Source of the DNA: a virus
DNA length: 33,314 nt
Reading direction: 5' to 3' (one strand)
IMG/VR virus record: IMGVR_UViG_3300044629_000639
Span: 1 to 33,314 of that record
Below are positions 6,324 to 30,344 of the stretch, piece after piece (position 1 is the first letter of the stretch; each line of letters opens with the position of its first letter). The translations under genes and the position numbers were made by a program. The notes under the pieces were generated by a model. That model was not told the DNA's origin. It made no database searches and worked only from the letters and a program-made list of their open reading frames with translations.

Positions 6324-6869
6324 CTAGAGATAGTATAACCTACCGTCGAATCCAACCTCGCCACGTGTCCACAGCAACTTGGCCGCCTCCGCATAGTCCT
6401 TGTGGGGCTGATGCGGCGGGATGGCTGAGAGACCCTCGATGATCTTGGCTCGCGTTGAAGCGAACAGCTTGGTGGCCACGTTGCCTGACGGCTCCACGTT
6501 GTCCCTGTGTGGTGGAGGGGTCGGCATTTCGTCATCGTCTTCAACCAAGGAGAAGGCCGAGGACGGTTTGATGGGTAATGCGTGGGGGCTTGTTTGGGTA
6601 GTGTCGTCGTTTTCCTGCTCGTCAGCGTTCTCGCCCAGTTTATCGACCATTCCCGCGTGTGGGGAGTAGTGTGATTCCACTGGCTTCGGCGGGTGCTTCA
6701 CGTACTTGGGGTCTATGGTTTGCGTGACGACGGCCTTCGCAGGGTCAACAGGGTGGCCAGCCCCAAATACGGACAGGCGGTAGGGGAGGTTGGCGATCTT
6801 AATGAGGGCGGCCAACACCTCGTTGGCCTCCTCTTGATCAGCCACCTCAAGTGAGATGGACAGTTTCAT
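6324..6869 (-). CDS. Hypothetical early protein, acidic linker and C-terminal helix
   Basis: This 181-residue protein starts at the ATG at 6869 (MKLSISLEVADQ), with AGGGAG about 10 nt upstream; further in-frame codons upstream lie inside the endonuclease gene. Residues 1-60 look like a small alpha/beta domain (LEVADQEEANEVLAALIKIANLP). Residues 60-130 are a low-complexity Pro/Asp/Glu-rich linker. The last 45 residues form a compact segment ending TRGEVGFDGRLYYL. The start overlaps the stop of the GIY-YIG gene by ATGA. I do not recognise it. A two-domain protein with a disordered linker would fit an adaptor or a single-strand-binding-like role, but there is no direct evidence. Confidence 0.6.
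   Translation of the reverse strand: MKLSISLEVADQEEANEVLAALIKIANLPYRLSVFGAGHPVDPAKAVVTQTIDPKYVKHPPKPVESHYSPHAGMVDKLGENADEQENDDTTQTSPHALPIKPSSAFSLVEDDDEMPTPPPHRDNVEPSGNVATKLFASTRAKIIEGLSAIPPHQPHKDYAEAAKLLWTRGEVGFDGRLYYL
6332..6340 (-). promoter_or_regulatory. Candidate -10 box GGTTATACT before the ligase gene
   Basis: On the minus strand GGTTATACT lies about 66 nt upstream of the ligase ATG, at the very end of the 181-aa gene. It matches the recurrent RGYTATAMT pattern of this genome. No clear -35 box is visible. Confidence 0.35.
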
Positions 6870-7528
6870 GATTTCTTGACTCCCTTTAGCAATCCGCGGA
6901 ACCACCCAAGAGCTAACAATTTCTCAGCCTCAGCAGGGTAGATACATCTTGACAAGACTCCGTTATTCACTGTTATTCTCCCTTTGATTTTATCAGCGTG
7001 TTGTTTGGCGAGCTCCTTGTTTTTACGCATATGATGTTTGTCTCCTGTTGTGCTTGGACTTTTCCTACCCTTGTTTACAGCCCCCATACGCGCAGCCACC
7101 TCAGGATTTTTCATTGGGTTGTTATCACCATCCATCCAAGGGGCTGGTGCTCCTATCTTCAGCGCGTTGGCGGCTTTCTGCTTGTCTGTATATTGACCCT
7201 TGCGAGCTTCGCAACAACGTAATCTTCCCAACTCCGTCTTCATAGGGTTGGCTCTACCGTGAGGAAGTATGTTGTATCCATGGGGCGCGATAGTGTTATA
7301 CTCCTTAATCAACATCGCTTCAATAAACAGGGCATTATCTTCTGTGTCGCAATAGCAGAGGATTTTGTGATCCCAGCAATCCACCCCATATTTCTTGATC
7401 GCACTCAGCATGATACTTCCGTATCCTTTACCTTTGTCCCATCTACTTTCAAGAGTTTCTGATGTATATCCAACGTATGACTTGTTAGATACAAGGCAGG
7501 TTCTGATGTAGACAATGTATTGTAGCAT
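6866..7528 (-). CDS. GIY-YIG homing endonuclease
   Basis: This 220-residue protein has a GIY-YIG core at residues 1-90: YIVYIRT then SYVGYT replace the GIY and YIG strands, an Arg sits in LESRW, and the metal-binding Glu is in LFIEAMLIKEYNT. The middle contains NUMOD3-like stretches (NPMKTELGR, GDNNPMKNPEVAARMG) that usually bind DNA. The end, GRITVNNG...IYPAEAEKLLALGWFRG, matches the end of the second GIY-YIG protein at 32004. There is no clear Shine-Dalgarno; a GGCTATAAT box lies 34 nt upstream of the ATG. It is a free-standing selfish element between the DUF932 gene and an unknown gene, not an intron ORF as far as can be seen. It cuts a target allele and spreads by repair. Confidence 0.85.
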   Translation of the reverse strand: MLQYIVYIRTCLVSNKSYVGYTSETLESRWDKGKGYGSIMLSAIKKYGVDCWDHKILCYCDTEDNALFIEAMLIKEYNTIAPHGYNILPHGRANPMKTELGRLRCCEARKGQYTDKQKAANALKIGAPAPWMDGDNNPMKNPEVAARMGAVNKGRKSPSTTGDKHHMRKNKELAKQHADKIKGRITVNNGVLSRCIYPAEAEKLLALGWFRGLLKGVKKS

Positions 7529-7561
7529 TTGAGTAGGCCAAACAGTGTATGTAATAACACT

Positions 7562-7570
7562 ATTATAGCC
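7562..7570 (-). promoter_or_regulatory. Candidate promoter -10 (GGCTATAAT) of the GIY-YIG gene
   Basis: On the minus strand GGCTATAATAGTG sits 34 nt upstream of the GIY-YIG ATG in the 63-nt gap after the DUF932 gene. It is a perfect TATAAT in the RGYTATAAT context seen repeatedly here. No TTGACA-like -35 is present. A 5-bp inverted repeat (AGTGT/ACACT) lies just downstream in the expected leader. Confidence 0.45.
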
Positions 7571-7591
7571 TACTTTTGCCTGTTTAGGGAG

Positions 7592-8596: not shown

Positions 8597-9199
8597 TCAG
8601 TTATTGGTTATGCGAATTTTGCCTACGTGACGGGAAGAAATTTGATGACGGCTTAGACCTCCAGCCGTTGTAACCATGCCGCATTTCTTACATTTGTATC
8701 GTTGTTTACTGAGCGCCAGTCCGCCCTTTTTACCGTTTCTGGAGCACGCGCCTTCAGAAAATAGACCTGTGCCATTTTTGAAATCATTTTTGCCTTTTAT
8801 TGCGCCACCTTTGCCGCCATTCTTGGCTAGATCAGCTTTAGAAAGAGCGAACACACCTTTCTTGTTTTCTACACAATATTTACCAGTCATTTTACCTCCA
8901 GCGGAGTGATACGCTGAAGAGCCTTTCTTGGACGCCTCGTACATTCTAGACTTTGTTTTCTTATGGACACCGCTCATAAAGAACACGGCTCGCCAACATT
9001 CACCGCCTAGAGCCTTTGCTAGTAACAGGTGAGCAACGTAGTGGGCTTTCGCATCCAGATAAACAGCGTTGCCTTCGACATATTCGCCGCCTAAGCATCC
9101 AGGAACTATACGATGCCTTTCGGTATATACTCCTACAGGCTTTTTGACGCTGCCTCTGGTTTCTATCAGTTTGTCGTAGACACGCTTGTAGTTCATCAT
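8597..9199 (-). CDS. HNH homing endonuclease with C-terminal C2H2 zinc finger
   Basis: The chosen start is the ATG pair at 9199/9196 (MMNYKRVYDKL), about 200 residues. Residues 20-65 carry the HNH-type core: YTERHRIVPGCLGG, then GNAVYLDAKAHYVAHLLLAKAL, with the HR, N and H positions of the fold. The middle is Gly/Lys-rich with repeated KNGGKGG-like units, a likely minor-groove binder. The last 35 residues hold a C2H2 finger: CKKC, 11 residues, then H, 5 residues, H. An in-frame ATG at 9328 would add 43 residues, but its codons run through a stable RNA-like structure and the -10 box lies downstream of it. A weak GGGTGAA site precedes the chosen ATG. It is a mobile selfish gene inserted next to DUF932. 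Confidence 0.8.
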   Translation of the reverse strand: MMNYKRVYDKLIETRGSVKKPVGVYTERHRIVPGCLGGEYVEGNAVYLDAKAHYVAHLLLAKALGGECWRAVFFMSGVHKKTKSRMYEASKKGSSAYHSAGGKMTGKYCVENKKGVFALSKADLAKNGGKGGAIKGKNDFKNGTGLFSEGACSRNGKKGGLALSKQRYKCKKCGMVTTAGGLSRHQISSRHVGKIRITNN

Positions 9200-9212
9200 T
9201 TCACCCAAACAA

Positions 9213-9286
9213 AAGGCTTCACCTGCACCCTCTCCTTGCGGAGTTGGACTAACGGATGGTATCCGCCAGGGTGCATGTGAAGCCTT
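9213..9286 (-). ncRNA. Cloverleaf-like leader structure of the HNH endonuclease mRNA
   Basis: Positions 9213-9231 (aaggcttcacctgcaccct) pair with 9268-9286 with a single mismatch in 19. Inside are two more hairpins: CTCC-4 nt-GGAG (9232-9243) and CGGAT-3 nt-ATCCG (9253-9265). On the minus, transcribed, strand the first small loop reads GCAA, a GNRA tetraloop, which points to a function as RNA. The structure ends 14 nt before the HNH start codon, and a candidate -10 lies 31 nt upstream of it. It is a plausible translational control leader for a selfish gene; no known Rfam class is recognised. Confidence 0.5.
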
Positions 9287-9316
9287 ACCATTTTCGGAGT
9301 CCAAGCCGATGAACGT

Positions 9317-9325
9317 ATTATAGCT
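9317..9325 (-). promoter_or_regulatory. Candidate promoter -10 (AGCTATAAT) of the HNH endonuclease
   Basis: On the minus strand AGCTATAAT lies 118 nt upstream of the HNH ATG. A start of transcription about 7 nt further would give a leader that begins just ahead of the cloverleaf-like structure. It matches the recurrent RGYTATAAT motif. No convincing -35 box. Confidence 0.45.
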
Positions 9326-9371
9326 CATATCATTCAAAATAGCTAGTGGGCGCCAAAAATATCTTGTTAGG

Positions 9372-9638
9372 TTACAGGTTTTCGATGCTGCTCGCGGCTT
9401 CTTCAGCGGAGCCGATAGCCTCTTCAAGGGAGCTGATGGCTTCCTCCAGCGTGCTGACGGCCTCTTCAATTGCCTGGCCGCGCTCGCCTTGCTGCAGGCC
9501 TTCCGGCATGTTGTCGAACTTGTCTTGCTCGTCTTCGCGGGTTTGCTCCAGCTCACTGCGCAGGTCATCCAGCATCGCTGCGTGGTGGGCGATTTGGGCG
9601 GCGACTTTGGCGAGTGTCTTGCGTTGATCAGCGTTCAT
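9372..9638 (-). CDS. Small acidic coiled-coil phage protein
   Basis: This 88-residue protein is nearly all helical: heptads run from residue 10 to 40 (AAMLDDLRSELEQTRE), and a regular alternation of Leu/Ile with Glu/Ser follows (VSTLEEAISSLEEAIGSAEEA). A central FDNMPEGLQQGERG segment breaks the helix. This layout is frequent in small phage proteins of unknown function. AGGAG precedes the ATG. It is probably a dimer or oligomer; the partner is unknown. Confidence 0.7.
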   Translation of the reverse strand: MNADQRKTLAKVAAQIAHHAAMLDDLRSELEQTREDEQDKFDNMPEGLQQGERGQAIEEAVSTLEEAISSLEEAIGSAEEAASSIENL

Positions 9639-10772: not shown

Positions 10773-10967
10773 TTAGATTGTAGAGCGAGCGTAGTTGAAG
10801 TTGTGAGCTTCGTCGGCGACTTGCTGAGCGGTGCGGCCGTAGAACACGCGACCGTCTTGGTCTTCGGCGGCCCAGTCGTTGATCTTCAGCGCGATTTGCT
10901 TATCAAGGGGAATGTCCTTGAAGGACTGACTGGCTACTTCATACAGGTCGGCGCGGTAGTTGTTCAT
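10773..10967 (-). CDS. First leftward gene: small hypothetical protein, 64 aa
   Basis: The start is taken at the ATG at 10967 (MNNYRADLYEVASQSF) because GGAG lies 7-8 nt upstream. A longer frame reaches back through the promoter. The 64-residue product looks like a single small domain (RADLYEVASQSFKDIP, ALKINDWAAEDQDGRVFYGRTAQQVADEA). As the first gene after the divergent promoter it should be made early, but I do not recognise it. Confidence 0.65.
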   Translation of the reverse strand: MNNYRADLYEVASQSFKDIPLDKQIALKINDWAAEDQDGRVFYGRTAQQVADEAHNFNYARSTI

Positions 10968-12564: not shown

Positions 12565-12762
12565 GAGCAGCGAGGGCTCGAGAGCGAGCCTGGCTCGTAC
12601 AGCAGCCAACGAGGCGAGGGCGAGCGAGGCGATCGCTCTGTGCTCTGGGGTGCGAGGCAGAGAGCGGAGGAGAGGCCAGAGGATTTGGCCGATGGGCCTT
12701 GGTTTTTGTTTGGTGGTGTAGGATTCCTCAGTCCCTGCGCGCCAACAGGCATACCGTATAAG

Positions 12763-28601: not shown

Positions 28602-29525
28602 ATGGCAACCCCAATGCGCAGTTCTGACTTTAGGTCAATCGTTGAGCCCATCCTCAACCAAGCCTTCGATGGTGTGTATGACCAGCGTGCCGATGAATAC
28701 AAGCAGGTCTTTCAGGAAAGCACGGGCATCGCTCGCGCCTACCACGAAGAGCCGATGCTGTACGGCATGTCCACTGCCCAAGTCCTCCCGGATGCGAATC
28801 CGGTGGCCTACGACAGCGGCGGTCAGTTGTTTGTCAAGCGTTACACCTACGACGTCTATGGTCTGGCTTTCGCCATCACCAAGGTGTTGGAGGAAGACGG
28901 CGATGCGATTCGTATCGGCTCCACCTACTCGAAGCATCTGGCTCAATCGATGACCGAGGCGCTGGAAACCGTTTGCGCGAACGACTTCAACCGTGCGTTC
29001 ACCTCCGGCTATACCGGTGGCGATGGCATCATCCTGTGCTCGGCCAGCCACACGGCCCTTGCAACGGGTGACTCCACGGCGACTTCGAACCTGCTGACGA
29101 CTTCGGCTGCACTCAGCCAGACCTCACTGGAACAGATGCTGGTGCAAATCCGCCAAGCCTCCGACCCGCGTGGTAAGAAGATCCGTCTACTCCCGAAGAA
29201 GCTGGTCATCTCCCCGAGCAACTCGTTCCAAGCTGAAGTTCTGCTGAAGAGCGTGCTGCGCGCCGGCACCAACAACAATGACCTCAACCCCGTCAAGTCG
29301 ATGGGCCAGCTGAGCGACATTGCTGTTCTGTCGCGTATGACCTCCGCAACCGCGTGGTTCATTCAGACCGATGCCGACAACGGTATGCAGGTCAAGTGGC
29401 GTCGCAAGGTTCAGAAGAGCATGGAAGGTGACTTCGAGACTGATTCGGTTCGCTACAAGTCGACCATGCGCTTCGGCCATGGCTGGACTGACTGGCGCAC
29501 CGTGTTCGGCACTCCCGGCACCTAA
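28602..29525 (+). CDS. Major capsid protein
   Basis: This 307-residue protein follows scaffold and head proteins and has a strong AAGGAG. It starts SDFRSIVEPILNQAFDGVYD. Conserved-looking parts include KRYTYDVYGLAFAITKVLEED, a Gly-containing loop GGDGIILCSASHTALATGD, and an end WRRKVQKSMEGDFETDSVRY then FGHGWTDWR. The pattern fits the HK97-fold class related to Mu-like gpT capsid proteins. A stable hairpin lies just after the stop. It forms the shell. Confidence 0.8.
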   Translation: MATPMRSSDFRSIVEPILNQAFDGVYDQRADEYKQVFQESTGIARAYHEEPMLYGMSTAQVLPDANPVAYDSGGQLFVKRYTYDVYGLAFAITKVLEEDGDAIRIGSTYSKHLAQSMTEALETVCANDFNRAFTSGYTGGDGIILCSASHTALATGDSTATSNLLTTSAALSQTSLEQMLVQIRQASDPRGKKIRLLPKKLVISPSNSFQAEVLLKSVLRAGTNNNDLNPVKSMGQLSDIAVLSRMTSATAWFIQTDADNGMQVKWRRKVQKSMEGDFETDSVRYKSTMRFGHGWTDWRTVFGTPGT

Positions 29526-29540
29526 GCAGTAAAGAAACAT

Positions 29541-29564
29541 CCCGACCCTCATTCGGGGGTCGGG
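29541..29564 (+). terminator. Hairpin after the major capsid gene
   Basis: CCCGACCC (29541-29548) pairs perfectly with GGGTCGGG (29557-29564) around an 8-nt loop, 16 nt after the capsid stop. No U-tract follows, so it may attenuate or protect the capsid mRNA rather than end it fully. Confidence 0.5.
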
Positions 29565-29606
29565 AACTTCAAATCGAGTGGTTCAAGCCACAGAGGAGAA
29601 TTCAAA

Positions 29607-30344
29607 ATGCAAGTATCTGATGACCTGTACCTCGGTCCTGCCGTAGCTGGCGGCTCCGGGGTTTCTGTTGGCCCTTCGCCGATGACTGTTGGCGTTGGCC
29701 CGCTTGGCCGTGTCTATGTCTACGACATCGCCCCAGCTGCTCTAGCTGCGAACAACCTCGCCACCTCCCAGAATCCGGGCTCTGGCGCTTCATTCACCCT
29801 GACTGCTGGCGCAGGCATCACGCAAGTGACGCTCGCCAACGGAGTTCTGGGCTATCAATTCGACGTGCCGCGTGCCGTGCGCGTGGTGGCAGCTGGCGCG
29901 AATACCGCCACCTACACCATCTCCGGCTATGACGTGTACGGCCAAGCGATGACCCAAACCATCGCAGCCCCGAGCACCTCCACGGTCACCACGACCAAGG
30001 CGTTCAAGGTCGTGACCAGCATCACCAACGCCAATGCTACTGCCGGCACCAACAACCTGACCGTCGGCACCACTGACGTGTTTGGCCTTCCGGTGGCTGT
30101 ATCCAATGTAGCCTACATCCTGAGCGTCAAGTGGGATGCAACGCTGGCTTCCAACGCTGGCACCTTCACCGCAGCGGACGCCACGACTCCGTCGGCGACC
30201 ACGGGCGACGTGCGAGGCACCTTCCTGCAAACGGGCAATGCTTCGGACGGTACGCGGCGCTTGGTTATTGCCATCGCTGTTCCGGCAATCGGCTCTGGCC
30301 CCACGGCAACTCGTGCGGGTGCTTTCGGTCTGACGCAGTTCTAA
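29607..30344 (+). CDS. Beta-rich structural protein (paralogue of the next gene)
   Basis: This 245-residue protein is rich in Ala, Thr and Val with an immunoglobulin-like beta pattern. A repeat-like segment (ATYTISGYDVYGQAMTQTI, then FKVVTSITNANATAG) aligns by eye with the following 213-residue protein (ITFTIIGTDSNGMAQTETG, FKTITTITPSATMG). GAGGAG precedes the ATG. Probably a capsid decoration or virion surface protein; hairpins lie on both sides. Confidence 0.6.
   Translation: MQVSDDLYLGPAVAGGSGVSVGPSPMTVGVGPLGRVYVYDIAPAALAANNLATSQNPGSGASFTLTAGAGITQVTLANGVLGYQFDVPRAVRVVAAGANTATYTISGYDVYGQAMTQTIAAPSTSTVTTTKAFKVVTSITNANATAGTNNLTVGTTDVFGLPVAVSNVAYILSVKWDATLASNAGTFTAADATTPSATTGDVRGTFLQTGNASDGTRRLVIAIAVPAIGSGPTATRAGAFGLTQF

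Follow-up and report, generated by a model that had tools for sequence, protein, structure and literature searches.

The HNH homing endonuclease and its start

The phage sequence analysed here, a stretch of 33,314 nt referred to below as the window, encodes a free-standing HNH homing endonuclease on its minus strand (8597-9199; phrog_655, E 9e-27). A search of phage records with this protein gives some 900 distant matches; a close homologue was not found in viral contigs, the best alignment-search matches being about 27-58% identical within the aligned stretch. In six homologues, from six different phages, the N-terminus is MNY, the family start, which corresponds to position 9196 of the window; upstream of it the protein alignment fails, and in one homologue a stop codon intervenes. 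The original prediction placed the start codon 14 nt downstream of a structured RNA, and there is indeed an ATG at this point (9199, counted from the arm end at 9213, which leaves 13 nt in between); however, as MNY is invariant in the family and the spacing of the SD-like sequence of the gene, GGGTGA (9201-9206, minus strand), suits the next ATG at 9196, the latter is the likelier start.

A three-way junction ahead of the HNH gene

The element that precedes the gene is 74 nt long (9213-9286, minus strand) and has the predicted minus-strand fold of a three-way junction, built from one arm and two inner hairpins. The arm (9286-9268 with 9231-9213) has 19 positions, 18 of them complementary and one an A.G mismatch, with a spacing of 36 nt between its strands; it is the longest close inverted repeat within the window, and in 60 simulated windows (first-order Markov) the best arm pair of the same size reached 17/19, with 18/19 in none. 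The first inner hairpin, GGCGGAU-ACC-AUCCGUU (9251-9267, minus strand), is predicted to form 7 bp, including two G.U pairs, around the loop ACC; the second, CUCC-GCAA-GGAG (9232-9243, minus strand), carries a GNRA tetraloop (9239-9236) and, overlapping it, the sequence AAGGAG (9237-9232). The fold further includes a 7-nt linker, AGUCCAA.

With a minimum free energy of -42.5 kcal/mol on the minus strand (z -7.3), the 74 nt form a structure whose stability is reached by none of 200 shuffled sequences, the comparison that had been proposed as a check. The plus strand also folds well (-38.4 kcal/mol, z -5.5), since inverted repeats fold on either strand; the GCAA loop is read on the minus strand only. 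Most of the element as originally described, namely a 19-bp arm with a single mismatch and a GNRA loop confined to the transcribed strand, is thereby borne out. Both enclosed hairpins are likewise present in the fold, the first of them being slightly longer than the 9253-9265 claimed for it, whereas the label 'cloverleaf' is too strong for a three-way junction: ARAGORN finds no tRNA in the element and Rfam no family at gathering score, and identity with a tRNA or a known RNA family was dropped.

Candidate promoter box and predicted pairing around the start codon

A -10 box had been predicted upstream of the element, at 9317, and is present there as a candidate TATAAT (9322-9317, minus strand), within GCTATAAT (9324-9317); a good -35 box is lacking, and the window as a whole shows no more than a modest enrichment of TATAAT. 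A transcript from this box would begin near 9310, with the outer 5' strand trimmed and the 74-nt arm retained.

At the other end, the SD (9206-9201) lies outside the stable 3' arm, which ends at 9213, and is reached by weak predicted base pairing alone. In this pairing, AC-U-CCGAA (9293-9300, minus strand) is the predicted partner of UUUGG-GU (9209-9203), which takes in part of the SD, and GUUCAUCG (9307-9314, minus strand) that of UGAUGAAC (9198-9191), which spans the start codons; the latter pairing depends on the transcript ends used. Burial of the start codon by GUUCAUCG was attractive at first, and then proved fragile: the predicted unpaired probability of the start region runs from 0.16 to 0.94, depending on the ends of the folded transcript, and 6 of 200 shuffles of the flanks close the SD and start equally well. 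Because of this sensitivity and of the shuffles that match it, the extra pairing predicted over the ribosome-binding site (RBS) and AUG is given little weight. With the RBS outside the arms, the fold models also leave simple RBS sequestration by the 74-nt element unsupported.

Leaders of the GIY-YIG gene and of HNH relatives

The same phage carries a GIY-YIG homing endonuclease, recognised by homology (6866-7528, minus strand), whose leader is predicted to fold into a hairpin of 17 bp with one bulge (7532-7574, minus strand; z -6.1), ending 3 nt before the ATG. A TATAAT (7567-7562) lies inside the 5' arm of this hairpin; in a transcript starting near 7555, from which the 5' arm is gone, the predicted unpaired fraction of positions -12 to -3 changes from about 0.11 to 0.61. 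No U tract follows the hairpin. The layout, an RBS hairpin with a -10 box in its 5' arm, is the same as that of I-TevI, segB and mobE, and makes this leader a cleaner candidate for T4-type control than that of the HNH gene. Among 30 gene starts, set by hand from predicted ORFs (the minus-strand start at 10964 is off by a few bases), the two most structured leaders belong to the two homing endonucleases, an outcome of 1 in 435 if random. Third in this ranking is the stretch 29497-29607 on the plus strand (-30.7 kcal/mol).

Leaders of the HNH family were gathered from viral contigs and phage records for 57 members, the window included. Stems of at least 10 bp close to the start occur in 8 of 50 non-redundant leaders, the window left out, vs 12 of 330 controls drawn from intergenic gene starts (Fisher p=0.0019). 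In L217/L221, L197 and L200, a G-rich, SD-like stretch is found in the 3' arm, which stops no more than about 3 nt from the ATG, a layout as reviewed for I-TevI, segB and mobE (PMC2988022); in L217/L221, TATAAATA lies between the hairpin arms. In L205, the hairpin ends 21 nt before the ATG and leaves AGGAG free, like the HNH leader of the window, with a TATAAATA box in the loop. A distance of 14-21 nt between the end of an upstream hairpin and the ATG, like that in the window, is seen in L205, L165, L207, L211 and L222. The link to the hairpin control known from T4, to which the original prediction appealed, is strengthened by the GIY-YIG leader and by hairpin leaders of HNH relatives, but the arms of the HNH leader itself leave the RBS uncovered.

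Distribution of the element and genomic context

The element has no second copy in the phage, and no DNA like it was found in phages, plasmids or pattern-searched viral contigs; the suggestion that it might be the relic of an insertion site is not supported. An arm-pattern search of genomes returned 119 stretches; in none of them did a second arm match. The sole exact 19-base match, CTCCGCAAGGAGAGGGTGC in L141, is at chance level and lies inside an unrelated open frame; a match in Telmatospirillum (34 bases, E 0.012) was rejected as a relative, as it comes without a matching arm. A search of 369 genomes from the class to which Herbaspirillum belongs, run without a positive control, detected neither this HNH protein nor a copy of the element.

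The closest phage found is L121, whose DUF932 protein is 82% identical to that of the window and which also shares most of the surrounding region. It has neither endonuclease beside DUF932, and no HNH gene or element upstream of the DUF932 gene, which is preceded instead by the counterpart of window 10773-10961; both endonuclease insertions thus appear to be recent or variable. Two further stretches are kept between these phages. One is promoter-like, AAAATTACTT-ATAGC ... TTATAAT (window 11012-11007, minus strand; about 3715-3725 in L121), and precedes a homologous gene of 62-68 aa in both, the position of the gene relative to DUF932 being shifted. The other, window 12605-12711 (L121 100-206), is about 86% identical at the DNA level, lies just upstream of rightward structural genes, and could be a non-coding element.

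A leader that may restrain the endonuclease

A stable, non-coding structure lies directly ahead of a homing endonuclease, in a phage whose strongest leader structures are concentrated on its two endonucleases. On balance we favour the reading that the element is a structured 5' leader which moves together with the homing endonuclease and holds its expression back. On messages reading through from upstream genes, the 19-position arm of the three-way junction would fold directly before the ribosome site and could lower HNH initiation by crowding it, while the weak base pairs of AC/CCGAA with UUUGG/GU and of GUUCAUCG with UGAUGAAC might partly close the SD and AUG. Initiation from the -10 box at 9322-9317 would give a shorter RNA whose 5' end, near 9310, falls within the outer 5' strand; the AUG could open in this RNA. 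Overall, this would be the logic of T4 I-TevI, segB and mobE with a sigma70-like box; we infer the repression, the promoter use and the base pairing in the HNH leader from the modelled folds. Counting against this reading are the position of the RBS outside the arms, the absence of an element-bearing relative from the searches described above, and with it of covariation, the want of a good -35 box, and a U-rich tail that fits a terminator.

This tail leads to the main rival, which is plausible, though we consider it less likely: the element could be an intrinsic terminator of the upstream minus-strand genes (an 88-aa gene lies at 9372-9638), or an attenuator limiting transcription into the HNH gene, with the stop in UUUUGUUU after the GC-rich arm. 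As in intrinsic terminators, a U-rich stretch comes directly after a GC-rich arm in the transcribed orientation; TTTTGTTT after the arm on the minus strand gives a T-tail score of 3.7 (d'Aubenton-Carafa scheme), compared to at most 1.8 on the plus strand, and the feature is therefore directional. However, a branched hairpin of 74 nt is far above the usual size of a terminator, a standard terminator scan gives no call, and the element sits in a block of co-directional genes, 13 nt ahead of a start codon: just these 13 nt would be left for a promoter between element and ATG, and DUF932, ligase and helicase, which lie downstream in the same orientation, would have to be transcribed from new promoters. 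The sister hairpin of the GIY-YIG gene, moreover, has no U tract after it.

That a REP- or MITE-like sequence, or some other mobile DNA palindrome, landed by chance before the HNH gene seems rather improbable. As an imperfect palindrome with a good fold on either strand, and one missing from L121, the element fits such an origin; yet it occurs once in the phage where several copies would be looked for, is without a match in phages, plasmids, pattern-searched viral contigs and the 369 sampled bacterial genomes, and shows no target duplication that we noticed. A chance landing would also leave unexplained why the GIY-YIG gene has a leader hairpin of its own, unrelated to this one.

There is also a slim chance that the three-way-junction leader, with its GNRA loop, controls the HNH gene without covering the ribosome site, either through the hidden AAGGAG and a coupled mini-frame (from GTG to a TGA overlapping the ATG), or through a binding protein such as the endonuclease itself. 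Translational coupling to a leader peptide, taken by itself, we regard as very improbable: the AAGGAG at 9237-9232, in the GCAA hairpin, would serve a GTG at 9228 or 9222, opening a short frame of 8 or 10 codons up to its stop, the TGA at 9198-9196, which overlaps both HNH ATGs (ATGATG). Other genes of the phage do use SDs of the AAGGAG type, but this one is enclosed where the fold is most stable, and chance frames of such short size are common.

Least probable of all is that the frame from 9328 (MSYNTFIGLDSENGKASHAPWRIPSVSPTPQGEGAGEAFCLGEM-MNYKR), which runs uninterrupted and in register into the HNH gene, encodes an N-terminal extension of the endonuclease to which the palindrome is incidental, against which stand the six homologues from different phages that begin with MNY, their upstream alignments, which hit a stop or break down, the lack of an SD ahead of the ATG at 9328, and a structure far beyond chance. 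Translation of this frame had been named at the outset as the finding that would speak against an RNA leader; it is not indicated, the upstream frame not being conserved among homologues, and the HNH protein most likely does not extend into the frame through the element.

RNA leaders that control homing endonucleases are known from T4-like phages, usually in combination with a T4 late promoter. In this small phage, which has no T4-like terminase or DUF932 matches, each of the two endonucleases has a strong leader structure, unrelated to that of the other, and an ordinary TATAAT box; these observations suggest that leaders of this kind are part of the lifestyle of the selfish gene rather than of T4 biology. 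The link between leader structure and homing endonucleases is one that can be counted across phages.

Comparison with known leaders

The T4-type leader hairpins described for homing endonucleases are those of I-TevI, I-TevII, I-TevIII, segB and Aeh1 mobE (PMC2988022). Like them, the HNH leader has a stable RNA structure where a homing endonuclease gene begins, and a candidate promoter box near the 5' side of this structure, so that the original comparison with T4 leaders is sound at this level. It differs in that their hairpin holds the RBS, which the main arms of the HNH leader do not; in that theirs is a simple hairpin and this one a 74-nt three-way junction; in that their box is the late box TATAAATA, whereas here it is TATAAT and lies outside the arms; and in the phage itself, which by its terminase and DUF932 matches is not T4-like. 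The element is a real, strongly structured homing-endonuclease leader, whose putative function would make it a variation on a form of control already described. The closest described case, by analogy, is seg43 of Aeromonas phage 25, in which a very stable hairpin lies just upstream of a free RBS, with a regulatory effect that is undetermined (PMC2988022). Such a structure directly 5' of a free homing-endonuclease RBS is also what the HNH leader presents; seg43 is described as a segD-like endonuclease preceded by a single hairpin (PMC2988022), whereas the leader in the window has a branched arm and precedes an HNH endonuclease.
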